Origin: Onishia taeanensis
GTDB lineage: Bacteria > Pseudomonadota > Gammaproteobacteria > Pseudomonadales > Halomonadaceae
Reading direction: 5' to 3'
Assembly (NCBI RefSeq): GCF_003268885.1
Contig: NZ_QLSX01000006.1
Coordinates: 186,001 to 250,000, forward strand
DNA: 64,000 nucleotides
Shown: piece after piece, positions 7,534-52,617 of the stretch
How positions within the stretch are numbered: the first letter of the stretch is position 1
Layout of the letters: every line of letters starts with the position of its first letter
Notes under the pieces: generated by a model
What the model saw: the letters and a program-made list of their open reading frames with translations, nothing else
Databases searched by the model: none
What the model was told of the DNA's origin: nothing
Made by a program: the position numbers and the translations under genes

Positions 7534-8793
7534 ATGCTTCTGGATACTGCGCCACTGGCCGTCGTCGTCGACAAGGATCCAGGTGTTTTGGCCGACCTGA
7601 CTCAACTATTTCGCACTCTGGGGCTCGACACTCACCACCAGCCTACTGACCTACAAGCTTGCCTTACTCACCTTAGACCTCGGCTAGTGATCCTCGATCT
7701 GGAAATCGACGGGGTCGAGGGAATCGACACCCTGCGCTATCTGGCGGACGTCGGCTATCGAGGCTCGGTGATGCTGCTCAGCGCCGTGGACCCCAAGGTA
7801 ATGCGGATCGCCGAACGGATGGGTCATACCCTTGGCCTGAACATGCTGGATTCGCTGAGCAAGCCGTATGAACTGAATGCCCTGCACGACAGCCTCGATG
7901 GACTGCGGATGCCGTCCCAGAGCGAAGCCGCCGGCAAGCACGGTAAAGAATGGGGCCGCGAGGAGATCGTTCGCGCCCTGAAAGAGCAGGAGCTGGTGGT
8001 TCATTACCAGCCCCAGTTTGATTTGACTTCCCAGACCCTCAGCGGTGTCGAGGCGCTGGTGCGCTGGCAGCATCCCGAGTGTGGGCTGATCTGGCCGAGC
8101 CACTTCCTGAAGCTGATGACCCAGGAGCAGACGCGGCTGATGACGCGCCAGATCGTGGCGCAGGTGGCTCGTGACTCTCAGCTCTGGCGGGTGTCAGACC
8201 AGCAGCTGTCGGTGTCGATCAACATTTCTCCCAATGAACTGCTTCACGATGAGCTGGTCCCGCTGATGGACGAACTGCAGCAGTCGCTGGGGTGTCGGCT
8301 GTCGCTGGTGCTGGAAATCACCGAAAACGATGCCATGCATGATGAGCTGTTAAGCAGCGAGGTGGCGGCACGGCTGCATCTGCTTGGCATGGAGCTGTCG
8401 GTTGACGACTTCGGGATTGGCTTTTCGTCTCTGGCACGTCTGCAGCTGTTGCCGATCAGTGAAGTGAAGATCGACCGAAATTTCGTTCGCCACCTCCACG
8501 ACAACTCCGAGGATGCGGCTATCGTCGAAGCCGTGGCATTGCTCGGTCAGCGCCTCGGCATCCGGGTGGTGGCCGAGGGCGTTGAGACGCTGGAGAGCCT
8601 GGCGCAGTTGGCACGTTTTGGCTGCACCCATGCTCAGGGCTATGCGCTGGCGAGACCCATGCCGGTCGAGGGTCTGCTGGCGCTGATCGCGAGTCTGGGC
8701 AGCTGTCAGCCCGCGGCGTCCGATCCCGCCACGCCCCAGACCTATCAGTTCTGGATGCCACGCAACGCCAAGCCCGCCAGTAGCGCGCCCTGA
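7534..8793 (+). CDS. Response regulator with EAL phosphodiesterase domain
   Basis: 419-residue cytoplasmic protein: receiver domain (about 5-125, phosphoacceptor Asp55 in VILDLEIDG, Lys of SKPYEL) fused to an EAL domain. The EAL motif is intact (VEALVRW near residue 173), as are EITEND, SVDDFGIGFSS, VKIDRNF and VAEGVET, so cyclic-di-GMP hydrolysis under phosphorylation control is expected. No GGDEF domain and no partner histidine kinase are encoded nearby, so it is an orphan regulator. The start may be the ATG at 7534 or an in-frame GTG at 7522. Confidence 0.92.
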   Translation: MLLDTAPLAVVVDKDPGVLADLTQLFRTLGLDTHHQPTDLQACLTHLRPRLVILDLEIDGVEGIDTLRYLADVGYRGSVMLLSAVDPKVMRIAERMGHTLGLNMLDSLSKPYELNALHDSLDGLRMPSQSEAAGKHGKEWGREEIVRALKEQELVVHYQPQFDLTSQTLSGVEALVRWQHPECGLIWPSHFLKLMTQEQTRLMTRQIVAQVARDSQLWRVSDQQLSVSINISPNELLHDELVPLMDELQQSLGCRLSLVLEITENDAMHDELLSSEVAARLHLLGMELSVDDFGIGFSSLARLQLLPISEVKIDRNFVRHLHDNSEDAAIVEAVALLGQRLGIRVVAEGVETLESLAQLARFGCTHAQGYALARPMPVEGLLALIASLGSCQPAASDPATPQTYQFWMPRNAKPASSAP

Positions 8794-8867
8794 TCGAGGC
8801 ACTGCTGCTTTTCTGGCCACGCGTGGTGTACTTGTCTTGGCGGCAGCGGACGCTTCCTCCGTGGCGC

Positions 8868-10520
8868 TCAGGGCGTGATTCGCTCGAGGATCGCGGCCAA
8901 GGGGGCATCCACGGGAAGTACACCATAAGCCGGGCTCGGCGCCTCGCCGAGCCGCGTTCGGCAGAAGGTATCGGCCACTGCCGCCGGGGCGAAGCGCAGC
9001 AGCAGAGCGGCCTGCAGGGCCTGGGCCATGCGCTGGGCCAGCCAGCGTGCGCGCAGGGTCAGGGTCTCGCTGGGCTGCGTCAGCGCCTCGTCGAGCTCGA
9101 CCAGGGCACGGTCGAAGTCGGCCTGCTGACCGCGCGCCGCCCTGAGCTCGTTCACCAGCGCCTGGATGCTCTCCGGATGGCGCGCCATCACACGCAGCAC
9201 ATCCAGGCAAATGACGTTGCCCGACCCCTCCCAGATCGAGTTCACCGGCGCCTCTCGGTATAGCCGGGCCAGCGGCGTTTCCTCCACGTAGCCGATGCCG
9301 CCCAGGCATTCCATGGCCTCGGCCATGAAGCCGGGCCCGCGTTTGTTGTGCCAGTACTTGGCAAGCGTCGGCAGCAAGCGTGCCAGGGCTCGCTCGTGGT
9401 CGCTGCCGCTGGCTTCACCATCGAAGGCGCGGGCGGCGCGCAGACTCAGCGTCACGCCGGCCTCGACTTCTAGCGCCAGGTCGGCGATCACCATCCGCAT
9501 CAGCGGCTGCTCGGCGAGCGGCCGGCCAAAGGCGTGGCGATGGCGTGCGAAGCGCCATGCTTCGCGCAGGGCCTGTCGCATCATGCCCACCGGGGCCACG
9601 GCAGCGTCGAGTCGGGTCTGCTGGACCATCTCGAGGATGGTGGCGATGCCGCGGCCCGGCGAGCCGATGGGCTGCGCCCAGGCGTGACGGTACTCGATCT
9701 CGGCGGAGGCGTTGGCGCGATTGCCGCACTTGTCCTTGAGACGCTGAATCTCGATGGGATTGCGGCTGCCGTCGGGCTGGAAGCGCGGCACCAGGAAGCA
9801 ACTGAGACCGTCTGGCGTCTGAGCCAGGGTCAGGAAGGCATCCGACATCGGCGCGCTGCAGAACCACTTGTGGCCGGTCAGCCAGTTGCCGTCGTTGTCG
9901 GCCTTGGCGCGGGTGGTGTTGGCCCGCACGTCGCTGCCGCCCTGTTTTTCGGTCATCGCCATGCCCAGCGTCACCGCTGCCTTGTCATTGAGTGGCAGCG
10001 CTCGCGGGTCATAGTCCCAGGTCAGCAGCCGCGAGCCCCAGTTGTCCAGCATCCAATCGTCCTGAGCCAGCACCGGCATGGCGGCATGGGTCATGGTCAG
10101 CGGGCAGCAGACGCCGGGTTCCGCCTGGGTCATCAAATAGAGCGCGGCAACATGCGCCTGATGGCCGCCGCGGCCTTCTTCCTGCCAGGCCACTGCATGC
10201 CAGCCGTGGTCGAAGGCTTCGTGCATCAGCTCATGGTAGGCGGGGTGGTACTCGACCTCGTCCAGACGACGTCCATGCCGATCGAAGAGCCGCAGGCGCG
10301 GCGGGTGCTGGTTGGCGGCCTCGCCCAGCGCCTGCAGCCGCCGGCTGCCTACCGCCCGGCCGAGCGCGGCGAGGCGACCGGCGACCCAGGTGGGGGCTTC
10401 ACGCGCCAGCGCCTCGCGCAGCGGGGTGTCGTCGGCCAGCCAGTCCTCGTCTTCGGGCGGCGGCGGCTGGTTGATGACCTCATGGGTGGCGAGGTGTTCG
10501 CGGGGGGCGCTATCGGCCAT
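8868..10520 (-). CDS. aidB: AidB-like acyl-CoA dehydrogenase family protein
   Basis: 550 residues, close to the 541 of E. coli AidB. It carries the acyl-CoA dehydrogenase core with the AidB pattern: an N-terminal extension, TEKQGGSDVRANTTRA in the FAD/substrate domain, GTAG-like helices, and the AidB-typical C-terminal stretch LGGIGYVEE plus SIWEGSGNVICLDVLRV. AidB is a flavoprotein induced in the adaptive response to alkylation, binds DNA and has weak isovaleryl-CoA dehydrogenase activity. The gene converges on the EAL gene and is divergent from the Nudix operon. No ada or alkB gene is adjacent, so membership of an adaptive response is not shown by context. Confidence 0.92.
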   Translation of the reverse strand: MADSAPREHLATHEVINQPPPPEDEDWLADDTPLREALAREAPTWVAGRLAALGRAVGSRRLQALGEAANQHPPRLRLFDRHGRRLDEVEYHPAYHELMHEAFDHGWHAVAWQEEGRGGHQAHVAALYLMTQAEPGVCCPLTMTHAAMPVLAQDDWMLDNWGSRLLTWDYDPRALPLNDKAAVTLGMAMTEKQGGSDVRANTTRAKADNDGNWLTGHKWFCSAPMSDAFLTLAQTPDGLSCFLVPRFQPDGSRNPIEIQRLKDKCGNRANASAEIEYRHAWAQPIGSPGRGIATILEMVQQTRLDAAVAPVGMMRQALREAWRFARHRHAFGRPLAEQPLMRMVIADLALEVEAGVTLSLRAARAFDGEASGSDHERALARLLPTLAKYWHNKRGPGFMAEAMECLGGIGYVEETPLARLYREAPVNSIWEGSGNVICLDVLRVMARHPESIQALVNELRAARGQQADFDRALVELDEALTQPSETLTLRARWLAQRMAQALQAALLLRFAPAAVADTFCRTRLGEAPSPAYGVLPVDAPLAAILERITP

Positions 10521-40480: not shown

Positions 40481-40522
40481 TACGCCCTATTGCTACGCCG
40501 GGGGGGATGCGACGGAGGATGA
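40481..40522 (+). promoter_or_regulatory. Candidate MalT-type activator sites upstream of malE
   Basis: TACGCCCTATTGCTACGCC (40481-40499) contains two ACGCC copies 13 bases apart and matches a segment upstream of lamB at 15 of 19 positions. It is followed by GGAGGATGA (40514-40522), which contains the GGA(T/G)GA core of MalT boxes twice. The malE start is 87 bases downstream. Inference from comparison inside the window. Confidence 0.5.
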
Positions 40523-40608
40523 GCCGTTCAGGGTGAAGATTGACGAGGCTATCCATATCCACCATCAGCTGATCAATTAACGTCATAACAATGAAGAGGT
40601 CCGTTCGC

Positions 40609-41793
40609 ATGTCACTACGCCAAGCGTTCACCGCTATGCTCATGCTGCCGCTCGCAGCCAGCGTGGCCCTGCCGGCCATGGCTTTCGAGGATGATGGCCT
40701 GACTATCTGGATGGGCGACAACAAGGGGCCCGAGGGCATCCGCGAGGTGGCCGACAGGTTCGCCCAAGATACTGGCATCGCCATTAACATCGTCAATCCT
40801 GACAATCTCACCGATCGCTTTCAGCAGGCGGCGGGCAGCGGCCAGGGCCCCGATATCGTGATCTGGGCTCACGACCGCATGGGAGAGTGGGCCAAGAGCG
40901 GGCTGCTGAAGCCGTTGGCGCCTAGTGAGGACTTCCGTGATCGCTACTTCGACTTCACTTGGGATGCGATGATCTGGAACGGAGAAACCTATGGCTATCC
41001 TATCTCGGTGGAGTCCTTGGGCCTGATCTACAACAAGGCGCTGGTCGGCGAGGTACCACAGAGCTTCGACGAACTCGCTGATCTTGATGCCAAACTCTCC
41101 CCTGAGGGCAAGAAGGCTATCCTCTTTGACTATGGTGAACCGTACTATGGCTGGTCTCTGCTGGCCGCAAACGGTGGCTACCCCTTCAAGCGCACAGCCG
41201 ATGGCTTCGACGTCAATGACATCGGCGTCAATAATGCCGGCGCCGTAGAGGGGGCAAAGCGGTTGCGGGCATTGATCGAAAGCGGTGTGCTTCCTGAGGG
41301 TACCGATTACAGCGTCATGGACACACGCTTCAACCAGGGGGAAGTGGCCACCATGATAAGTGGGCCCTGGGCCTGGAATAACCTGCGCCAGAGCGGTATC
41401 GACTTCGGTGTGGCCCTGCTGCCCAAAGTCGGTGACGCCCGTGCCAAGCCATTGTTCGGTGTGATGACAGCGATGATCAATTCGGCCTCACCCAATGACT
41501 TCTTGGCCACCGAGTTCCTCGAGAACTATCTGCTCAGTGAGCCGGGTCTCCGCACTTTCAACAGTGATGGCTCGTTGGGAGCGGTAGCCCACAAGGTGTA
41601 CCAGCAAGACTTGGAGAGCGATCCCAAGATTGCAGCCACCCTAGCCAACGCCGAAGTCGGTGAGCCGATGCCTAATATCCCTGAAATGGGCGCCTTCTGG
41701 TCGGCCATGGAACCAGCCCTGCAGAACATCGGTAGCGGTCGGCAATCACCCGAGGATGCTCTAGACGCCGCCGCGCGGCGCATGCGTCAGTAA
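40609..41793 (+). CDS. malE: Maltose/maltodextrin-binding protein MalE
   Basis: 394-residue periplasmic binding protein (E. coli MalE has 396). Signal peptide of about 25 residues ending in PAMA, then EDDGLTIWMGDNKGPEG. Family motifs include DIVIWAHDRMGEWAKSGLL, YGYPISVESLGLIYNKAL and NQGEVATMISGPWAWNN. It delivers maltodextrins to MalFGK2. The ATG at 40609 has AAGAGG at 9 bases; an ATG at 40591 lies before this site. First gene of malEFG, separated from malF by 84 bases with hairpins. Confidence 0.95.
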   Translation: MSLRQAFTAMLMLPLAASVALPAMAFEDDGLTIWMGDNKGPEGIREVADRFAQDTGIAINIVNPDNLTDRFQQAAGSGQGPDIVIWAHDRMGEWAKSGLLKPLAPSEDFRDRYFDFTWDAMIWNGETYGYPISVESLGLIYNKALVGEVPQSFDELADLDAKLSPEGKKAILFDYGEPYYGWSLLAANGGYPFKRTADGFDVNDIGVNNAGAVEGAKRLRALIESGVLPEGTDYSVMDTRFNQGEVATMISGPWAWNNLRQSGIDFGVALLPKVGDARAKPLFGVMTAMINSASPNDFLATEFLENYLLSEPGLRTFNSDGSLGAVAHKVYQQDLESDPKIAATLANAEVGEPMPNIPEMGAFWSAMEPALQNIGSGRQSPEDALDAAARRMRQ

Positions 41794-41809
41794 CGCCACC
41801 TCACCCATC

Positions 41810-41854
41810 GGAGCCCCGGGCTCCTTGGTCGGCCCCAGAATCATGCCGGGGCCG
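41810..41854 (+). promoter_or_regulatory. Two hairpins between malE and malF
   Basis: GGAGCC/GGCTCC (41810-41824) and CGGCCCC (41830-41836) with GGGGCCG (41848-41854) form two stems right after malE, with no T tract. In E. coli the malE-malF gap holds REP hairpins that stabilise malE mRNA; these could play the same part. Confidence 0.55.
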
Positions 41855-41877
41855 GCCTGTCGAGCAGGATCAATTGC

Positions 41878-43431
41878 ATGTATACGACCAATGCTACGCG
41901 GGGTCTGCCGCGACATCGTTCCCGCGACCTGCGAGAGCGTTACTCCCGCTGGACAATGCGTGCGCTGCTTGTAGTGCTGATACTCGCCACACTTTGGCTT
42001 GTGGCGGCCTTCCATCTGCAGGGACAGTGGATGTTCGCGCTACTTTTCCTGGTACTGGGCACGTCGTTTGCCATCGTCTTCTTCAAGCGCTCGCTGATGA
42101 GCCATCGCTATATCTTTCCGGCTCTGGCCGGGATGGGCGTGTTCGTTATCTTTCCGTTGCTCTATACCATCGGGATCAGCTTCAGCAATTACAGCTCCAG
42201 TAACCTGCTAAGTGAGGAGCGGGTCCGCGATCAACTTCTGGATATGCGTTATCAGGCCGAAGGTGGCGCCTTCGATTTCTCGCTCTATGAAGAAGACGGT
42301 ATGGCCAGGCTCTATCTTGAAGGGGACCCCAGCCTGGTCAGCCCACCGCTCAACCTGGCCAATTCGGAACCGCGCAGGGTGGGGCTCGACCGTGCGTCTG
42401 AGCCGCCCGCAGGCAAGCCGCTGGCGATGCGCGAGGTGATCCGTCAGCGCACCCTGCTGCAGGGCCTTACGCTGCAGACCCCTGATGGTGTAGAGCTACG
42501 CATGGCCGGACTCCGCCAGTTTGCACCGTTGTTGCCGCGTTACTCACAACTGGCTGAAGGGCGACTTCTAGACGAGCGAGATGGGGGAGTACTGACGCCG
42601 GATGAAGAGATCGGCTTCTTTGTCGATGAGAGCGGCCAGAGGATCAACCCGGGCTGGCCGGTAGCGGTTGGATTGGATAACTATAAGAAGATCTTCACCG
42701 ACCCGGCCATCCGCGGTCCCTTCATGCAGATATTCGTATGGACCTTCGTTTTTGCCGGATTGACGGTGGTCTTCACTCTGGCGGTGGGGTTCATCCTAGC
42801 CACCCTACTGCAGTGGGAGCAGCTCAAGGGCAAGGCTGTCTATCGTACCCTTTTGATTCTGCCCTATGCGGTGCCGGCCTTTATCTCGATCCTGATCTTC
42901 AAGGGCATGTTTAACCAGAACTACGGTGAGATAAATCTGATCCTTGAGAACCTTTTTGGCATCAGTCCTGATTGGTTTACGGATCCGGCTCTGGCCCGAG
43001 CCATGCTGCTGATCGTCAACACTTGGCTGGGCTACCCCTACATGCTGTTGCTGTGCATGGGGCTGATCCAATCTATTCCTCGTGATCTATACGAAGCCTC
43101 GGCGGTGGATGGAGGTGGGCCGCTCACCAACATGATGCAGATCACCTTGCCATTGATCCTCAAACCGCTGACGCCACTGTTGATCGCCGCTTTCGCTTTC
43201 AATTTCAATAACTTCGTTTTGATTGCACTGCTTACGGGTGGAAGCCCCGACATACTGGGTGCGAGCACGCCAGCGGGTACCACCGATTTGCTGGTGAGTT
43301 ACACCTATCGCATTGCCTTTCAGGATGCCGGCCAGAACTTTGGCTTGGCAGCGGCCATCGCCACCCTGATTTTTCTGCTGGTGGTTGGCTTATCGCTGCT
43401 CAATCTGCGCTTGTCGAAGGTCAAGGTCTAG
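41878..43431 (+). CDS. malF: Maltose ABC transporter permease MalF
   Basis: 517-residue inner-membrane permease (E. coli 514) with MalF-type topology: several N-terminal helices, a large periplasmic loop after the third (about 110-270), and the C-terminal permease core. The EAA loop, which docks on MalK, is [20 protein letters not shown]. The long periplasmic loop (P2) contacts MalE. malG follows 13 bases after its stop. Confidence 0.95.
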
Positions 43432-43444
43432 AAGGATTTGTCTT

Positions 43445-44335
43445 ATGGCTATGGTTCAACCCCGTTCGATCCGCGCCCGCAAACTAGGCGCACACCTCGC
43501 CTTGCTAAGCTTTGTCGCGCTGGTGGTGTTTCCGCTGCTGTTGGTGATCTCAATTTCCTTTCGCGAGGGCAATTTTGCGACCGGTAGCCTGATCCCCGAG
43601 CGTTTCGCCCTTGAGCATTGGGCATTGGCGCTGGGCATTCCTTGGGAGCGTGCCGATGGCAGCGTGGTGCAGCCGCCATTTCCTGTTCTGCTATGGCTAT
43701 GGAACTCGATCAAGGTGGCGGTGGTGTCCTCGTTGATGATCCTGCTGCTCTCCACCACCAGCGCTTATGCTTTCGCCCGAATGCGCTTCAAAGGCAAGGC
43801 GCCGATTCTCAAGGGCATGCTGATCTTTCAGATGTTCCCAGCGGTACTCTCGCTGGTGGCTCTTTACGCCCTGTTCGACCGTCTGGGGCAACTGGTTCCC
43901 TGGCTCGGCATCAATACCCATGGTGCGCTCATCGTCGCCTCATTGGGGGCGGTGGCGCTACATATCTGGACCATCAAAGGCTACTTCGAGTCTATCGACG
44001 GTTCGCTTGAGGAAGCCGCCATGGTTGACGGAGCCAGCACCTGGCAGGCCTTTTGCCATATTCTGCTGCCGTTATCGGTTCCGATCCTGATGGTGGTGTT
44101 CATCCTCGCCTTCATCATGTCGATCATGGAGTATCCGATGGCCTCGGTGCTTCTGCTCGACGAAGACAAGCTGACCCTGGCAGTTGGTGCCCAGCAATAC
44201 CTGGCAGATCACAACCAGCGCTGGGGGGACTTCGCTGCAGCGGCGGTGCTTTCTGGCCTGCCTATTACGGTCATTTTCCTGCTTTGCCAGCGCTGGATCG
44301 TCGGCGGTCTGACCTCCGGCGGGGTCAAAGGCTGA
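43445..44335 (+). CDS. malG: Maltose ABC transporter permease MalG
   Basis: 296-residue permease, the same length as E. coli MalG, with six helices and the EAA loop [20 protein letters not shown]. It ends in SGGVKG, like the MalG tail that reaches into the MalK dimer. Start at 43445 follows AAGGA. A terminator ends the malEFG unit. Confidence 0.95.
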
Positions 44336-44378
44336 ACTCGCTTCGGCCCTTTGATGTGATTTCAAGCTTTGCTGCATT

Positions 44379-44403
44379 CCCCGCCTTTCGGCGGGGTTTT
44401 TTT
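44379..44403 (+). terminator. Rho-independent terminator of malEFG
   Basis: CCCCGCC, loop TTTC, GGCGGGG, then seven T residues; a textbook terminator 44 bases after malG. Confidence 0.92.
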
Positions 44404-44426
44404 CTTACACGCTCGACCTTTTATGA

Positions 44427-45875
<1,449 letters not shown>

Positions 45876-45911
45876 CTCTCAGCGCTCGCGATCGATAGGT
45901 CCTTTATGCTT

Positions 45912-45937
45912 GCCGGCTCCTCTGGGGCCGGCTTTTT
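45912..45937 (+). terminator. Terminator-like hairpin between lamB and malM
   Basis: GCCGGC (45912-45917) and GCCGGC (45927-45932) form a 6-bp stem followed by TTTTT. A short stem may allow read-through into malM. Confidence 0.7.
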
Positions 45938-45974
45938 GGCTTCACAGGTGGGGCGAAGCCCCTAGGAGATGCAG

Positions 45975-46841
45975 ATGTACGCCGATAAATGGTTGGCCAT
46001 GGGTCTACTCGCCACGCTGCTTTCCGGCTGCGCTTTGGCACCCGAGCCAGTCGAGGAGGGGCACGTGGTGTCGACGGACTGGCTGGCTCAGTCACCCGAC
46101 TGTTGCCAAGGTCTCGCGGATCTGCCGCCAACCGCTATGCAGTTGGAGACCCGTCAGGTGCTGGTTTTTGATGCCGATACGCCGGTACATGCCTTTGCCA
46201 GCGGCAAAAGCCCCTTTCATGCTCTGGACCTGCCGACCGATGTCGGTCCCGTGCAAGTCGAGGTGACGAGCGAGGTCATGCGGGACAGGCGCGGGTCCCT
46301 GGAGGTTATCGCGCCTACCCTGCTGTTGCTGGATCGCGAGGGCCGCGTGCAGCGGCGACTAGACTGGCAGGCCTTCGATTATCGACCTTCACGCGGCTTG
46401 GCTCCCGACCGCTTGACGGCATCACTCGGCATTAATCCTTCAGTCGAGGCGGCACGACTAGTGGTTCTGACCACGTCCGAGGCACTGGCGGCCACCACCG
46501 AGGTTCTGCATCCGTCCAGGGCCCGTGCTCAAGCCCGCCACCTGGCCGACCCTGCGTTGACCAATCCCCGGGCGCGCCATGTGGCTAGGGGTGAGGTGGT
46601 TCTTCGGGTGAGTGTCTTGGGAGAGCAAGGGCGCTGGAGTAAAACGCGACCCGCCGGGGCTTCACTTCCGCCAGCAGTCACCGAGGGCTCGGCTCTGGAT
46701 GGGCTCGCCATCCGGCGCCTGATCCGGGCGGCACTCAAGGCCGATGACATCGACCTTGCCATGGCACTGGCTGAGCGCGCCGAAGGTGCTGGTGAGACCG
46801 GAACCCGAGCATGGCTCGCCGAGCAGTTGCGGGTACGCTAA
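45975..46841 (+). CDS. malM: MalM-like maltose operon protein, lipoprotein form
   Basis: 288 residues. A signal peptide with lipobox (LLATLLSGC, Cys near 19) predicts a lipoprotein, whereas E. coli MalM is a soluble periplasmic protein. The stretch FASGKSPFHALDLPTDVGPV matches the MalM core. Its role in maltodextrin use is unclear even in E. coli. AGGAG at 45963-45967 fits the ATG at 45975 better than the ATG at 45969. It follows lamB and ends before a shared terminator. Confidence 0.85.
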   Translation: MYADKWLAMGLLATLLSGCALAPEPVEEGHVVSTDWLAQSPDCCQGLADLPPTAMQLETRQVLVFDADTPVHAFASGKSPFHALDLPTDVGPVQVEVTSEVMRDRRGSLEVIAPTLLLLDREGRVQRRLDWQAFDYRPSRGLAPDRLTASLGINPSVEAARLVVLTTSEALAATTEVLHPSRARAQARHLADPALTNPRARHVARGEVVLRVSVLGEQGRWSKTRPAGASLPPAVTEGSALDGLAIRRLIRAALKADDIDLAMALAERAEGAGETGTRAWLAEQLRVR

Positions 46842-46868
46842 ACACGCCTAGCAGTATGGCTCAATGAG

Positions 46869-46896
46869 AAGGCCCCGACGCCTGCGTCGGGGCCTT
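46869..46896. terminator. Bidirectional terminator between malM and malK
   Basis: AAGGCCCCGACG (46869-46880) pairs with CGTCGGGGCCTT (46885-46896). With A residues on one side and T on the other it can serve the convergent malM and malK transcripts. Confidence 0.8.
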
Positions 46897-46936
46897 TGTC
46901 ATGGGGCTAAGCGAGAAGTTGCTGGGTAAGGCGGGA

Positions 46937-48052
46937 TCAGCGTGTAACGCCGGGAACCTCGACCTGGCGGGGGCAAGCATCGCCGTTGGCAGCGAACAGG
47001 TGGCAATGCGCCCCTGATAGTCCGAGATTAACCCACTGGCCTTCTTTTAGCTCCGCGAGGCCATCCAGACGCTGGGTCATGGGTGCCTCGACCCCCTCCA
47101 CGGAGAGGTGCGCCAGACTTTCATAGCCTAGCTTTTCGGCAACCACCAGCCGTGCTTCGAGGGTGGCATCGGCCCCCTCGGCTGCGACGAAGTCTTCGGC
47201 ACGTACTCCTAACGTGGCTGTGTCGCCAACCTGTAAGCCTCGGCCGTCAACTGCTACGGCCAGGGTTTCTCCGGAGGGCAGGCGCACGCTTGTGTGCTTT
47301 GCTCCGGGGTCGATCACGGTCACTGGCAGGGTATTGATACGCGGCGAACCGATGAACTCAGCGACCTCAAGTGTATGCGGGAAGTGATAGAGCGACAGTG
47401 GGGCGCCCACCTGGGCGATACGACCGCTCGAGAGCAGCACGATGCGGTCGGCCAGGGTCATGGCCTCGACCTGGTCATGGGTCACGTAAACCATGGTCGC
47501 GCCGAGCCGTTTATGCAGCGCGGCGATCTGCACCCGCATCTCCACTCGCAGTGAAGCATCGAGGTTGGATAATGGTTCATCGAACAGGAACACCGCCGGC
47601 TCTTTGACCAGGGTCCGGCCGATCGCCACCCGCTGCCGCTGACCGCCGGATAGGTCCTTGGGCTTGCGCTCGAGCAGTGGCGTCAGCCGTAGAATCTCGG
47701 CCGCATGCTGGACGCGGCGCTGGATTTCGGACTTGTCGGTGCGGGCGAGCTTGAGGCCGAAGGCCATGTTTTCCGCCACCGTCATATGCGGATAAAGAGC
47801 ATAGGATTGGAAGACCATGCCGATATCCCGCTCCTGAGGCGGTATCTCGTTGATACGCTCGACGTCTAGGCACATCTCTCCTTGGCTGATGTCCTCGAGC
47901 CCGGCGATCATGCGCAGCAGGGTTGATTTACCGCAGCCCGAGGGGCCGACGAAGACCACGAATTCACCGTCCTCAATGGTCAGGTCGATATGTCGCGAGA
48001 TCTCGACGCCGTCGTAGTCCTTACCGATGTCATCGAGTGTCAGACGTCCCAT
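46937..48052 (-). CDS. malK: Maltodextrin ABC transporter ATPase MalK
   Basis: 371 residues, as in E. coli. Walker A GPSGCGKST (about 36-44), signature LSGGQRQRVAIGR, Walker B AVFLFDEPLSNLD and a C-terminal regulatory TOBE domain of about 135 residues. It powers MalEFG. GAGGAGG precedes the start, which overlaps the 3' end of the alpha-glucosidase gene by 13 bases, so the two are translationally linked. In E. coli malK is with lamB-malM; here it sits with the glucosidase on the opposite strand. Confidence 0.95.
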   Translation of the reverse strand: MGRLTLDDIGKDYDGVEISRHIDLTIEDGEFVVFVGPSGCGKSTLLRMIAGLEDISQGEMCLDVERINEIPPQERDIGMVFQSYALYPHMTVAENMAFGLKLARTDKSEIQRRVQHAAEILRLTPLLERKPKDLSGGQRQRVAIGRTLVKEPAVFLFDEPLSNLDASLRVEMRVQIAALHKRLGATMVYVTHDQVEAMTLADRIVLLSSGRIAQVGAPLSLYHFPHTLEVAEFIGSPRINTLPVTVIDPGAKHTSVRLPSGETLAVAVDGRGLQVGDTATLGVRAEDFVAAEGADATLEARLVVAEKLGYESLAHLSVEGVEAPMTQRLDGLAELKEGQWVNLGLSGAHCHLFAANGDACPRQVEVPGVTR

Positions 48053-49725
48053 TGTGCATCCTCCTCGTCGTTTTGCGGGCAGCGGGCGATGGCGATGCCG
48101 AAGGCTGGCAGGGTGAGGGAGGCGTCCTGCCAGCGGCCATTGACCATCGATGGCGCATCATCGATGGCCTTGGCTGCACGGGGAGCCGGAAGCTCGCGTG
48201 CCTGGTCGGAGAAGTTTAGTGCTACTAACAGACGTTGATCGGGATCGCTGGCCGCATGGCTGCGCTCGAAGCAGAGCACGTCGTCATGCACCGGATGGTA
48301 GCGGATGTCGCCCTTGATCAGCGCCGGTTGAGTGCGCCGGAAAGCTAGGAAGGAGCGATAGTGGTTGAGCAGCGAGTCAGGCTCATTGTCCTGCTGGTCG
48401 ACGGCAAGCCCCAAGTGACTTTCTGGCATCGGCAGCCAGGGCATGGCGCGGGAGAAGCCGCCGTGAAGGGTATCAGCCTCCCACGGCATAGGTGTTCGGC
48501 AACCATCACGCCCCTTGTAAGCTGGCCAGAACGCGATGCCGGCGGGGTCGACCAACTGCTCGAAGGTGAGCTCGGCCTCGGGCTGGCCCAGTTCTTCGCC
48601 CTGATAGAGGCAGATGCTGCCGCGCTGGGTGAGCAGGAAGGCCAAGTAAAGGCGCAGTGCAGCGTTATTGCCCTCGGCCTGCCAGCGGGTGGCGAGGCGA
48701 GTCACGTCGTGGTTGCCCAGCGCCCAGCACGGCCAGCCATCGCCGATACGCGCTTCCATCTCGGTCAGGGTCTTGTGCAGGAATGCCGGATCGTGGCGTT
48801 CGCCGAGCAGGTCGAAGGAGTAGGCCATGTGCAGGCGGTTACCGCCCCGCGTGTAATCGGCCATCACGCTCAGCGAGTCATCGTCGCCCACCTCGCCGAC
48901 GCTGGTGGAGCCGGGGTATTCGTCGAGTAGTGCGCGCAGCTTTTCGAGGAACACCAGATTCTCTGGCTGAGTTTTATCGTGGAGGTGAAGCTGGAAGCCG
49001 TAGGGGTTGTCGGGCCTAACGCCGATGAAGCCTTCGGCCAACTCCTCTCGGGGCGGGTTGTCTTTCAGCGCTCCGTGGGTGCAGAAATTGATCGCGTCGA
49101 GACGAAAGCCGTCGACGCCTCGCTCCAGCCAGAATCGCACCTCGCCGAGGATCGCCTCGACAACTTCGGGGTTACGGAAATTGAGGTCCGGCTGCTCGAC
49201 GAGGAAGTTGTGCAGGTAGTACTGGCAGCGACGGGTATCCCATTGCCAAGCGCTGCCGCCGAAGATTGCCTGCCAGTTGGTGGGTGGGGCGCCGTCAGCC
49301 TTGGGATCGGCCCATACATACCAGTCTGCCTTCGGGTTGTCGCGACTCGCTCGGCTCTCCTGAAACCAAGCGTGCTGGTCGGAGGTGTGTGAGAGCACCT
49401 GGTCGATAGTGACCTTCAGGCCGCGGGCATGAGCGGCTTCCACTAAGCGGTCGAAGTCCTCAAGGGTTCCAAACATCGGGTCGACGCTGCGGTAGTCGCT
49501 GATGTCGTAACCGAAATCTAGCATCGGTGAGGTGAAGAAAGGCGACAGCCATATGGCGTCGATGTTCAGTGACGCGATGTAGTCGAGCCGGTCGATGACG
49601 CCCTGCAGATCACCGATGCCGTCGTCGTTGGTGTCCATGAAACTGCGCGGATAGATCTGGTAGATCACCGCGCCGCGCCACCAGTCCGCACCTTGGTTAC
49701 TGAGCCGAGAAATGTCGTTGGTCAT
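48040..49725 (-). CDS. GH13 alpha-glucosidase (GH13_23, Halomonas HaG-like)
   Basis: 561-residue cytoplasmic glycoside hydrolase family 13 enzyme. The N terminus WWRGAVIYQIYPRSFMDTND and FFTSPMLDFGYDISDYR match exo-acting alpha-glucosidases; the nucleophile Asp is in GFRLDAINF, the acid/base Glu in TSVGEVGDD and the third Asp in LGNHDVTRLA. It closely resembles the alpha-glucosidase described from Halomonas sp. H11, which prefers short maltose-type substrates. No signal peptide, so it acts on imported maltodextrins and gives glucose, standing in for MalQ/MalP/MalZ. AAGGA precedes the start. Confidence 0.93.
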   Translation of the reverse strand: MTNDISRLSNQGADWWRGAVIYQIYPRSFMDTNDDGIGDLQGVIDRLDYIASLNIDAIWLSPFFTSPMLDFGYDISDYRSVDPMFGTLEDFDRLVEAAHARGLKVTIDQVLSHTSDQHAWFQESRASRDNPKADWYVWADPKADGAPPTNWQAIFGGSAWQWDTRRCQYYLHNFLVEQPDLNFRNPEVVEAILGEVRFWLERGVDGFRLDAINFCTHGALKDNPPREELAEGFIGVRPDNPYGFQLHLHDKTQPENLVFLEKLRALLDEYPGSTSVGEVGDDDSLSVMADYTRGGNRLHMAYSFDLLGERHDPAFLHKTLTEMEARIGDGWPCWALGNHDVTRLATRWQAEGNNAALRLYLAFLLTQRGSICLYQGEELGQPEAELTFEQLVDPAGIAFWPAYKGRDGCRTPMPWEADTLHGGFSRAMPWLPMPESHLGLAVDQQDNEPDSLLNHYRSFLAFRRTQPALIKGDIRYHPVHDDVLCFERSHAASDPDQRLLVALNFSDQARELPAPRAAKAIDDAPSMVNGRWQDASLTLPAFGIAIARCPQNDEEDAQWDV

Positions 49726-49840
49726 GTGCTTTGTCCTTGCCGTGTGGCTAGAGGCCAGGTGTGACCGCGCATCGGTTCGCGGGGCGCCAGCCTTACGAGA
49801 AACGTACGGGATATGTTGGCGGCAGTGCCGAAGAGGAACA

Positions 49841-49867
49841 TCCTCCTGGCGTCGATGTGGCAGGCGT
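49841..49867 (-). promoter_or_regulatory. Candidate MalT-type sites upstream of alpha-glucosidase-malK
   Basis: On the minus strand two ACGCC copies (49867-49863 and 49852-49848, 15 bases apart) lead straight into AGGAGGATG (GGAGGA at 49846-49841), 116 bases before the glucosidase start. Same elements as at malE and lamB but with different spacing. Confidence 0.45.
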
Positions 49868-49890
49868 AGGCGGGGGGAGGAGGGGAGCGA

Positions 49891-52617
49891 TTACTCCCCC
49901 TGAATGCGAGCCAGCAGGTCGCCGGCCAGGGCGATGGCCTCTGCACGATGGCGAATGTTCTGCTTCTGGTAAAGGCTGCGGATGTGGGTCTTGATGGTGG
50001 TGGGGGCTACTGTCAGCTGCTCTGCGATCTGCTCGTTGGATAATCCGGCGTGGATCAGTCCCAGTATCTGCCATTCGCGACGTGTCAGCGGCGATGTGCG
50101 AATCAGTTCGGGCACGTCGGGACGGGCGATAATATCGGCGATCTCGGTGTCGTCGAGCATCAGGCGCACCGCGCGACCGAAGTCGCGCTGACGGCCGGCC
50201 AGGGCTATCAGGCGTTTGGCCCGCTCTCGCGCCAGGCCATCGAGCTCATCGGTCTCGAGCAGAGCCGTGAGCATTTCTCTAAGCGGCGTGCCCAGACGCA
50301 GGAAACTGCCGGTGACGGCCGTGCGCGTGGCCAGTACGAGTGCTTTGGACATATGCGAGAGTGCTGGCCTGCGGTTGCCGCATTGCCATTCCAGAGCCGC
50401 CAGGCACAGCTGGTTTCGATTGGTGTCTGTGATCAGCCCGAAGCAACGGGTCTGCTGCTCCAGGGTCATTAATAATGTCCGGGCCTGCTCGGTGTGGCCG
50501 AGCAGCATCAGGGCGCGGGCATGATTGCGCACGTTGGCCTGGGCGAAGTGATTGCTGGCGGTGTCGGGTTCAGCGGTGGGCGCTTCTTGCAGCCAGCGGG
50601 CAACGGCATCGAGATCGTCGTTGGAGTGCCACCAGGCGAGCAGGGTGGCATGGGCGTTGGCTCGCCAGTCGATATGGTAGTCGCCATCGGCGAGGATTTT
50701 GCGAAGACGGCGGATGTGGTCGGCACACTGAACCTGGTCGCCGCGGGCCAGAGCGACCTTGGCGAGGCTTACGTGACATTGCAAGGTCCAGGACTCTCCC
50801 TGATTGTCGAGCACGGCGATGCCGTTGAGCGCCGCTTGTTCGGCCTCATCCAGCCGGTGCCATTCCCACAGCAGCTGGCTGCGTATGCGATACAGGAATT
50901 CGGCCACAGGCAGGCGGTCGAGTCCGCAGTGTTCGATATGAGCGAAGGCTCGCTCCTGGATATCGAATGCCGCCTGCAGGCGGCCTTGGGCCACCAGGGT
51001 CTCTGAATGGTGGCATAGCGCCCAAAGCATCAACTGATCGTCGCCGAGACGCATGGCTTCCTGTTCCACCACATGGATCCGGGTCAGCGATTCTTCCAAC
51101 TGGCCTTGGACGAATCGCGCTTCACAGAAGATGGCGGCGGCGGACGCTGGCGTGGAGTCCAGATAGCGTGCGGGCAGCGTTAGTGCCTGCTCAGCCAGCG
51201 GGGAGGCCCGTTCGGCGTTGCCTCGGTTGATCGCTAATTGAGCACGGAGGGTAGCGAACTCGGCGGCGAGCGCTTGCCAGGGCGGTTCTTCGAGCTGTGC
51301 CTCGATCCAGCCGATGGCCCTCTCGGTTCGGTCGTACTGGTACTGGGCATGGGTGACCCAGCCATAAATCAGGGTCAGGCGCGGCGAAGCACTCAGCTTT
51401 GGTTCGCCGAGGGTGTCCATGGCTCGTGCCAGCAGGGCGAAGTGGCCCTTGGCCAGTAGGTGAGGGCCATGATCCTCGATCAGATCAGCCAGCGCTTCAG
51501 GGTGGTCGGCATTAATGGCCTGGGCAAGCGCCAGGGCTGGTTTGCCCAGAGCCAACCATGCAGTGCCGGCACGGCGGTGCAGCTGGTGCTGGGAGTCAAG
51601 GCTCATTTCGTGTCGCCGATGGCACAGGTACTGGGAGAACAGGGTATGAAAGCGACACCACTGATCGTCAGGGGTCAGGCGAAGCAGGAACAGGCCGGCC
51701 TGATCCAGGGCCTCTAGACGTTGTGTGACTCGGTCACCTTCCAGCAGTCGTGCCACCAATTGCGGGGAAAAGCGTTCGAGAACACCTAGCTGCAACAAAA
51801 GCTGGCGATCGTGATCATCGAGATGTTCCCTCAGCAGGTCATCAAACCAGGCCACAAAGTCTGGATGCGCGCCGCTCAAACGCTCGAGTAGGGCGTCGAA
51901 GCCGGCACGAGTGGTGGTGCGCTCGACCAGCCAGTTGAGGGCCATGACCCAACCTTCGGTCAGGCGCAGGGCTCGCTCCAGGCTGACCCGGCTCGGCGGG
52001 AAGCTGAGTTGCTCGGCGCAAAGGGTCTGGGCCTCTTCATGGTCGAAGGCCAGTTCCTCGGCGCCGATCTCCTCCAGTTCGCCACGCATGCGCAGCGCCG
52101 GCAGGCCAAGGGCTGGCCAGGTGCGCGAGATCAGTGTCAGCGTCAGCCAGGGGGGCTGGTGGCGCAGCCAGTGAGCGAGTCCTGCCAGGATCTCGGGGGC
52201 AGAGATGTGCTCGAATTCGTCGATCACCAGCCGGCAGGGAGTAGCCTCGCTAGGCAGTTGTGACAGCCAGGTCTCGATGGCTTCGTCGAAGGCTATATCA
52301 GGTGCTTCGGCGAGGTCGCCCAGGGACGGGGGCGATAGCGCGAGATGCTCATGAAAAAGGGTGCTGAGAGCGGCCTCAAAATAGCGCAGGAAGCGAGTGG
52401 GGGTATCGTCCTTGGGGTCGAGGCGCAGCCAGGATGCCGGTTGCTCCAAGGCTGGCAAGCGCTCGGCGAGCAGAGTGGTCTTTCCGTACCCTGGTGGAGC
52501 ATGAATGACCTGCACGCGGATGCGTTCATCGAGCATGAAGTGATCATTGAGACGCTCACGAGCGACCGGTGTGGGCGGTAACGGTGGCGGAGTGAGCTTG
52601 TCTGGAATCAGTCGCAT
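49891..52617 (-). CDS. malT: MalT-like transcriptional activator
   Basis: 908 residues (E. coli MalT has 901), a STAND-class regulator: N-terminal start RLIPDKLTPPPLPP, Walker A VIHAPPGYGKTTLLAERL (near 35-52), a sensor arm of helical repeats, and a C-terminal LuxR-type helix-turn-helix (TRREWQILGLIHAGLSNEQI, then APTTIKTHIRSLYQK). It probably activates the mal genes on ATP and maltotriose-type inducer. It lies upstream of the glucosidase-malK pair on the same strand with 165 bases between, and is divergent from the GH32 gene. Confidence 0.93.
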   Translation of the reverse strand: MRLIPDKLTPPPLPPTPVARERLNDHFMLDERIRVQVIHAPPGYGKTTLLAERLPALEQPASWLRLDPKDDTPTRFLRYFEAALSTLFHEHLALSPPSLGDLAEAPDIAFDEAIETWLSQLPSEATPCRLVIDEFEHISAPEILAGLAHWLRHQPPWLTLTLISRTWPALGLPALRMRGELEEIGAEELAFDHEEAQTLCAEQLSFPPSRVSLERALRLTEGWVMALNWLVERTTTRAGFDALLERLSGAHPDFVAWFDDLLREHLDDHDRQLLLQLGVLERFSPQLVARLLEGDRVTQRLEALDQAGLFLLRLTPDDQWCRFHTLFSQYLCHRRHEMSLDSQHQLHRRAGTAWLALGKPALALAQAINADHPEALADLIEDHGPHLLAKGHFALLARAMDTLGEPKLSASPRLTLIYGWVTHAQYQYDRTERAIGWIEAQLEEPPWQALAAEFATLRAQLAINRGNAERASPLAEQALTLPARYLDSTPASAAAIFCEARFVQGQLEESLTRIHVVEQEAMRLGDDQLMLWALCHHSETLVAQGRLQAAFDIQERAFAHIEHCGLDRLPVAEFLYRIRSQLLWEWHRLDEAEQAALNGIAVLDNQGESWTLQCHVSLAKVALARGDQVQCADHIRRLRKILADGDYHIDWRANAHATLLAWWHSNDDLDAVARWLQEAPTAEPDTASNHFAQANVRNHARALMLLGHTEQARTLLMTLEQQTRCFGLITDTNRNQLCLAALEWQCGNRRPALSHMSKALVLATRTAVTGSFLRLGTPLREMLTALLETDELDGLARERAKRLIALAGRQRDFGRAVRLMLDDTEIADIIARPDVPELIRTSPLTRREWQILGLIHAGLSNEQIAEQLTVAPTTIKTHIRSLYQKQNIRHRAEAIALAGDLLARIQGE

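Follow-up and report, generated by a model that had tools for sequence, protein, structure and literature searches.

The mal locus and its upstream regions

We analysed a stretch of 64,000 nucleotides from Onishia taeanensis (contig NZ_QLSX01000006.1, positions 186,001 to 250,000 of the forward strand; hereafter the window) that carries genes for maltose uptake and use, and asked what the conserved elements upstream of three of them, malE, lamB and agl, are likely to be. The protein matches of MalE, MalF, LamB and MalT pass their NCBIfam cut-offs, whereas MalK (534 bits, cut-off 568) and MalM (82 bits, cut-off 295) are family matches below theirs. Genes and promoter features are listed in Table 1.

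A preliminary description of this DNA had pointed to direct repeats of ACGCC upstream of the three genes, 13, 13 and 15 bp apart, each followed by GGAGGA some 87-116 bases before the gene. The letters are all present. Upstream of malE, ACGCC lies at 40482 and 40495 (13 bp apart) and GGAGGA at 40514, 89 bases before the gene; upstream of lamB, ACGCC is found at 44454 and 44467 (13 bp) and GGAGGA at 44489, 109 bases before the gene; upstream of agl, on the minus strand, ACGCC occurs at 49867 and 49852 (15 bp), with GGAGGA at 49846, 115 bases before the gene. These distances, close to those first given, refer to ATG start codons at 40609, 44604 and 49725 (minus strand). By window statistics alone the repeats are not clearly more than chance: the window has six matches to ACGCC-N5..12-ACGCC, compared with 2.94 +/- 2.03 in shuffled versions, and 16/100 shuffles reach six. 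We take the repeats to be real because they are conserved in relatives, not because of their count in the window.

Comparison with relatives and with E. coli leads us to believe, with a probability of roughly 0.9, that the ACGCC repeats are the opposite-strand view of MalT binding sites arranged in a layout like that of E. coli. Each of the three window promoters would then be a MalT-type array, made of two inverted cores in a 13-bp register plus a forward core that lies 35-36 bp beyond the first; we refer to these positions as slots 0, 13 and 35 or 36. Two spellings of the core would predominate, GGA(T/G)GA and GGCGTA (TACGCC when read inverted), and MalT would bind the latter as well as the former. 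All three window promoters have a GGA(T/G)GA core at slot 35-36, in agreement with the initial view of GGA(T/G)GA as the MalT core and of these promoters as MalT-type. At malE the forward core that lines up with those of relatives is GGATGA at 40517, and the overlapping GGAGGA at 40514-40519, which had been singled out at first, is out of register. The agl array reads, on the minus strand, TCCTCC at 49881, TACGCC at 49868 and GGAGGA at 49846, that is, 0/13/35.

Table 1. Genes and predicted promoter features of the mal locus (positions in the window)
Feature	Position	Strand	Evidence or remark
malE, maltose-binding protein	40609..41793	+	NF007011 MalE, 522.8 bits, cut-off 291
lamB, maltoporin	44604..45875	+	NF006860, 545.5 bits, cut-off 394
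malK, next after agl	46937-48052	-	534 bits, NCBIfam cut-off 568
agl, GH13 alpha-glucosidase-like enzyme	48040..49725	-	PF00128, 415 bits
malT, activator proposed for all three arrays	49891..52617	-	NF003420 MalT, 849.7 bits, cut-off 537
malE slot 0, inverted GGCGTA (TACGCC on +)	40481..40486	-	MalT-type core
malE slot 13, inverted GGCGTA	40494..40499	-	MalT-type core
malE slot 36, promoter-proximal forward core GGATGA	40517..40522	+	slot table of relatives
Putative -10 element AGGCTA of malE	40546..40551	+	29 bp past the proximal core, in the conserved ATTGgCGAggCT block
Extra inverted GGCGTA	44432..44437	-	21 bp upstream of the lamB array, off the 13-bp register
lamB slot 0, inverted GGCGTA	44453..44458	-	MalT-type core
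lamB slot 13, inverted GGCGTG	44466..44471	-	CCCGCC on + in 6/8 lamB promoters
lamB slot 36, proximal forward core GGAGGA	44489..44494	+	slot table of relatives
agl slot 0, GGAGGA running against agl (TCCTCC in agl sense)	49876..49881	+	missed by the preliminary description
agl slot 13, GGCGTA running against agl (TACGCC in agl sense)	49863..49868	+	CTACGCC in 61/61
agl slot 35, proximal GGAGGA in agl sense	49841..49846	-	slot table of relatives
Second ACGCC of the 15-bp agl repeat	49848..49852	-	15-bp spacing in 1/61

Conservation of the arrays in relatives

For the comparison, the 300 bases 5' of malE (n=25), lamB (n=8) and agl (n=61) were collected from the window and 79 loci, comprising 50 malT loci and loci of further relatives; the window is counted in. 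We kept regions in which the protein match started at most 25 residues from the start and the 300 bases were complete, removed exact duplicates, and required an identity of at least 50% for MalE and LamB; lamB-like paralogues (25-29% identity) were left out of the counts. As background we drew 20,000 windows of 300 bases at random from these loci, with the promoters left in. The slot tables of malE were anchored on ACGCC-N8-ACGCC (24 promoters) and those of agl with TACGCC at slot 13.

The 13-bp pair ACGCC-N8-ACGCC is found in 24/25 malE upstream regions and in 0.56% of the random windows. The preliminary description had proposed that related genomes be searched for the repeats, and at malE they prove to be kept. 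CTACGCC is present in all 61 agl and all eight lamB regions, compared with 4% of the random windows. After thinning to regions with less than 50% of bases identical, the pair was retained in 19/20 malE regions and CTACGCC in 16/16 agl and 5/5 lamB regions.

At malE, a T precedes each ACGCC in 24/24 anchored promoters, both upstream slots thus reading TACGCC, and slot 36 holds GGAGGA (14) or GGATGA (9) in 23/24, window included; the one anchored exception, L022, has GGATGA at 37. The unanchored malE promoter, from a Marinobacter (L052) whose MalT is 45% identical, reads TACTCC/TACGCC/GGGTGA at 0/13/36. Only 2/25 malE promoters fail the three-core array with strict core spellings, and 0/25 with loose ones. 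Five malE promoters (L021, L025, L026, L032 and L035) carry one more TACGCC, 11 bp past the second copy and 24 bp past the first, which may point to an array of four cores.

The spellings at agl slot 0 (n=61) are TCCTCC in 35 promoters, TACTCC in 14, TCCGCC in four, TCATCC in three, TACGCC in two and others in three. This series shows directly an interchange of TACGCC with TCCTCC and TCATCC, with TACTCC and TCCGCC as apparent intermediates. The agl TACGCC has its conserved partner in the TCCTCC at 49881-49876 (minus strand), 13 bp upstream. The 15-bp ACGCC pair at agl occurs in 1/61 promoters, the window alone, and we reject it as a functional unit; its second ACGCC is probably there by chance.

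At lamB the fit is looser. The exact 13-bp ACGCC pair is found in 1/8, again the window alone, and the second copy reads CCCGCC in six and CCCTCC in one of the other seven. Slot 36 of lamB is GGAGGA in 4/8, GGAGGG in 3/8 and GGGAGG in 1/8. Across the family, the upstream pair is GGCGTA/GGCGTA at malE, GGCGTA with GGCGTG, GGCGGG or GGAGGG at lamB, and mostly GGAGGA/GGCGTA at agl, and the proximal site is mostly GGA(T/G)GA.

A scan of 2.31 million strand-bases (window plus L007-L056) for the strict three-core array gave 68 matches, 66 of which fall in the analysed upstream regions. The other two are the malE upstream region of L019, which had been filtered out, and the end of L039, where a malE-type block follows downstream. 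The latter, in an uncultured Halomonas (L039:20446-20490), looks like a second malE-type promoter with both array and GATTGGCGAGGCT block, lying some 8 kb downstream from malT; its gene would fall past the contig end.

MalT and the distribution of the motif

Overall, the window MalT shares 36% identity with that of E. coli, and it has a nearly identical helix-turn-helix (APTTIKTHIRSLYQK in the window, AATTIKTHIRNLYQK in E. coli), and the DNA-reading helix is nearly the same in the MalT tails of five relatives. It is 86% identical to the MalT of an Onishia taeanensis strain, in keeping with a host from the Halomonadaceae. It is the only full-length MalT in its genome, the other five matches spanning the helix-turn-helix region only. 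Directly upstream of malT, many relatives carry a gene for a distant maltoporin-like protein with 25-29% identity to the window LamB (L014, L023-L028 and others, at about 8600-9890 on the + strand).

The malT gene is patchy in the family, being detected at E <= 1e-80 in 47/201 genomes and in 8/24 genera. The motif CTACGCC-N7-TACGCC follows it: 44/47 genomes with malT have it, compared with 31/154 without (Fisher 1.9e-20, a value that overstates independence because the genomes are related). A control with the spacing shortened to 12 bp, CTACGCC-N6-TACGCC, matched in 89/201 genomes, 23/47 with and 66/154 without malT, and showed no link. Among the 30 matches listed with their loci, a proximal core follows the pair in 13/16 from genomes with malT and in 0/14 from genomes without. 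The window's own genome has six matches to TACGCC-N8-ACGCC, of which two are those of malE and lamB; GGA(T/G)GA at slot 36 is found in none of the other four. The pattern scans also met tandem minisatellites with 13-bp units (CTACGCCTCTCTT) and 12-bp units (G115:C17:598984-599055 and G006:C107:3895-3961). Among phage records, nothing matched the promoter of lamB.

Comparison with E. coli and other Gammaproteobacteria

The E. coli malPQ promoter (malPp) has TCATCC/TCCTCC/GGATGA at 0/13/36, like the window an inverted pair 13 bp apart plus a forward core at 36, and in the malK promoter TCATCC and TCCTCC form a pair with the same 13-bp spacing, followed by GGTGGA at 37 and GGAGGA at 40. Because this geometry matches that of the window arrays, TACGCC fills the slots that GGA(T/G)GA takes in E. 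coli. Same-strand cores exactly 13 bp apart are present in 3/3 window and 3/3 E. coli promoters, six core spellings being allowed. Where malPp differs is that both its upstream cores are GGA(T/G)GA, whereas in Halomonadaceae both are GGCGTA at malE and usually one of the two at agl. The promoter of E. coli malEFG (malEp) does have a GGCGTA core, within GGGGCGTAGG, with GGAGGA 13 bp on; however, its pair runs with the gene and GGAGGA is gene-near, unlike the malP-type inverted pair of Halomonadaceae malE. Just upstream of the malEp pair lies AGATCACA, presumably part of a CRP site, and no site of this type was seen by eye at the window promoter. Vidal-Ingigliardi is said to have reported in 1991 that MalT sites lie in direct repeat and that paired sites are needed for activation.

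Searches across the class for MalE and MalT proteins each matched only 2/369 genomes at E <= 1e-60, the window's genome among them; with so few matches, the wider sampling was drawn from plasmid records. Ten malE regions were hand-picked for taxonomic spread among the 70 matches listed of 139. Nine of these ten further promoters, from Vibrionaceae, Enterobacterales and an Acinetobacter plasmid (Photobacterium, two Vibrio, Salinivibrio, Pantoea, Erwinia, Providencia, Citrobacter and Acinetobacter), have GGCGTAG with GGA(T/G)GA at 13 bp; the two spellings are thus shared with the window, while the orientation is gene-sense as in E. coli, unlike the window. The tenth is a record of Aeromonas caviae (L158, NZ_AP026896.1), included as a plasmid in PLSDB but chromosome-sized at 4.9 Mb, which has a MalE match without a MalT array.

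PMC7567727 quotes the MalT consensus as GGGGA(T/G)GAGG, which does not describe GGCGTA; ACGCC indeed lies outside the E. coli consensus, as had been stated at the outset. The same paper gives a 'MalT' motif of Actinoplanes, TCATCC-5nt-GGATGA, in which the same core forms an inverted pair across the -35 region; it differs in its 5-nt spacing and in belonging to an actinobacterial regulator reported not to act on maltose metabolism genes. No publication on MalT sites in Halomonadaceae was among the literature matches listed, which were partial texts dominated by homonyms of 'malt' and 'male' and make this a weak negative. In the matching parts of PMC5507952, on Halomonas sugar pathways, all six 'malt' matches are to maltose or maltodextrin, and 'MalT' in those of PMC2996990 is an unrelated transporter.

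Weighing the interpretation

Two options had been left for ACGCC in the preliminary description, a lineage-specific MalT half-site or the site of a second regulator. Array geometry and the link with malT both point to a MalT site, the first option; its qualifiers are not supported. GGCGTA is not lineage-specific, occurring in E. coli malE (GGGGCGTAGG) and, as GGCGTAG, in 9/10 other malE promoters, and nothing favours a half-site, since every TACGCC takes up a full MalT-core slot and exchanges with TCCTCC/TCATCC at agl slot 0. A second, lineage-specific regulator on the ACGCC repeat, with MalT on GGA(T/G)GA only, would fit the departure of TACGCC from the consensus quoted in PMC7567727, the TACGCC found at both upstream slots in 24/24 anchored malE promoters, and the greater strictness of CTACGCC than of the proximal core at agl (61/61 against 51/61). 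We consider it very improbable, given that GGCGTA occupies slots held by GGAGGA or GGATGA in malP, malK and agl slot 0, in the same 13-bp register and with intermediates; that it recurs beyond the lineage; that the pair tracks malT (44/47 against 31/154 genomes) and so does the full array (13/16 against 0/14 matches); and that the four TACGCC-N8-ACGCC matches outside mal in the window's genome are without a slot-36 GGA(T/G)GA. Nothing observed requires a second regulator.

Chance or composition, ACGCC being common in GC-rich DNA, is the least probable of the alternatives. It would account for the window count reached by 16/100 shuffles and for the 15-bp agl pair private to the window, and it remains our explanation of the second ACGCC at agl. 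Conservation refutes it for malE, for slot 13 of agl and for slot 0 of lamB (24/25 malE regions against 0.56%; CTACGCC in 61/61 agl and 8/8 lamB regions against 4%), and this conservation survives thinning (19/20, 16/16 and 5/5). Somewhat less improbable than a second regulator, and still unlikely, is that the TACGCC slots are bound by MalT as a sink or restraint that lowers expression, with only the proximal box activating. GGCGTA is never the proximal core in the slot tables, fitting a weaker, non-activating role, and a model for E. coli that has aggregated MalT inhibiting malEp when MalT is abundant (PMC3161199) points the same way. The array layout, on the other hand, copies that of E. coli malP. 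That activation needs paired sites, as Vidal-Ingigliardi reportedly found, also speaks against a sink.

Several observations weigh against our interpretation of the repeats as MalT sites. The exact CTACGCC-N7-TACGCC is missing in three genomes with malT, the window's among them, the latter because its malE reads TTACGCC. At agl, slot 35 holds GGAGGA or GGATGA in 51/61 promoters, a count biased upwards because the anchor prefers CTACGCC with a downstream proximal-like hexamer, and GGA(T/G)GA is absent from the slot in 10/61; the array as a whole fails in 14/61 agl promoters with strict spellings and in 12/61 with loose ones. The strict array is found in 0/8 lamB promoters, and the loose one in 7/8 with loose spellings set after seeing lamB; GGCGTG entered the core list only after the window lamB was seen. 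One of the ten picked malE promoters, that of Aeromonas caviae, has no array upstream. Finally, that GGGGCGTAGG of E. coli malE is a footprinted MalT site is our assumption.

Proposed mechanism and implications

If the arrays are bound by MalT, then, by analogy with E. coli, MalT activated by maltotriose and ATP would oligomerise cooperatively on the three cores; PMC4381067 and PMC10427625 describe how MalT multimerises and binds cooperatively. The proximal core probably lies near -35. AGGCTA may be the -10 element of malE, and MalT binding would be expected to affect transcription. If AGGCTA is the -10, the proximal core is centred near -38.5 from the predicted start site, where the proximal MalT subunit would contact RNA polymerase; PMC7567727 places an end of the E. 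coli box at -34.5 to -35.5. Tentatively, we suggest a two-spelling code in which GGCGTA would build the MalT oligomer without polymerase contact and GGA(T/G)GA would be the polymerase-contacting core, a code possibly kept across Gammaproteobacteria with the orientation of the pair flipped between E. coli-type and Halomonadaceae-type malE.

The agl gene itself shows one oddity in annotation. The top NCBIfam model for its product is the beta-galactosidase BglA (NF051899; 799 bits, under the cut-off of 900), a name that seems at odds with the GH13 alpha-amylase fold family of the product.

The promoters described here would thus be of a known kind, and sequence comparison adds GGCGTA, a second way of spelling the core that the quoted consensus does not cover. 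A motif that might have passed for a clue to a new regulator would be settled as part of a MalT promoter. The description of the MalT site would be widened accordingly, for scans with GGGGA(T/G)GAGG alone would miss GGCGTA sites. In the malE and agl promoters compared here no core is better conserved than GGCGTA, which also recurs in malE promoters elsewhere. The 0/13/36 geometry may also serve as a cheap caller of mal promoters in new genomes.

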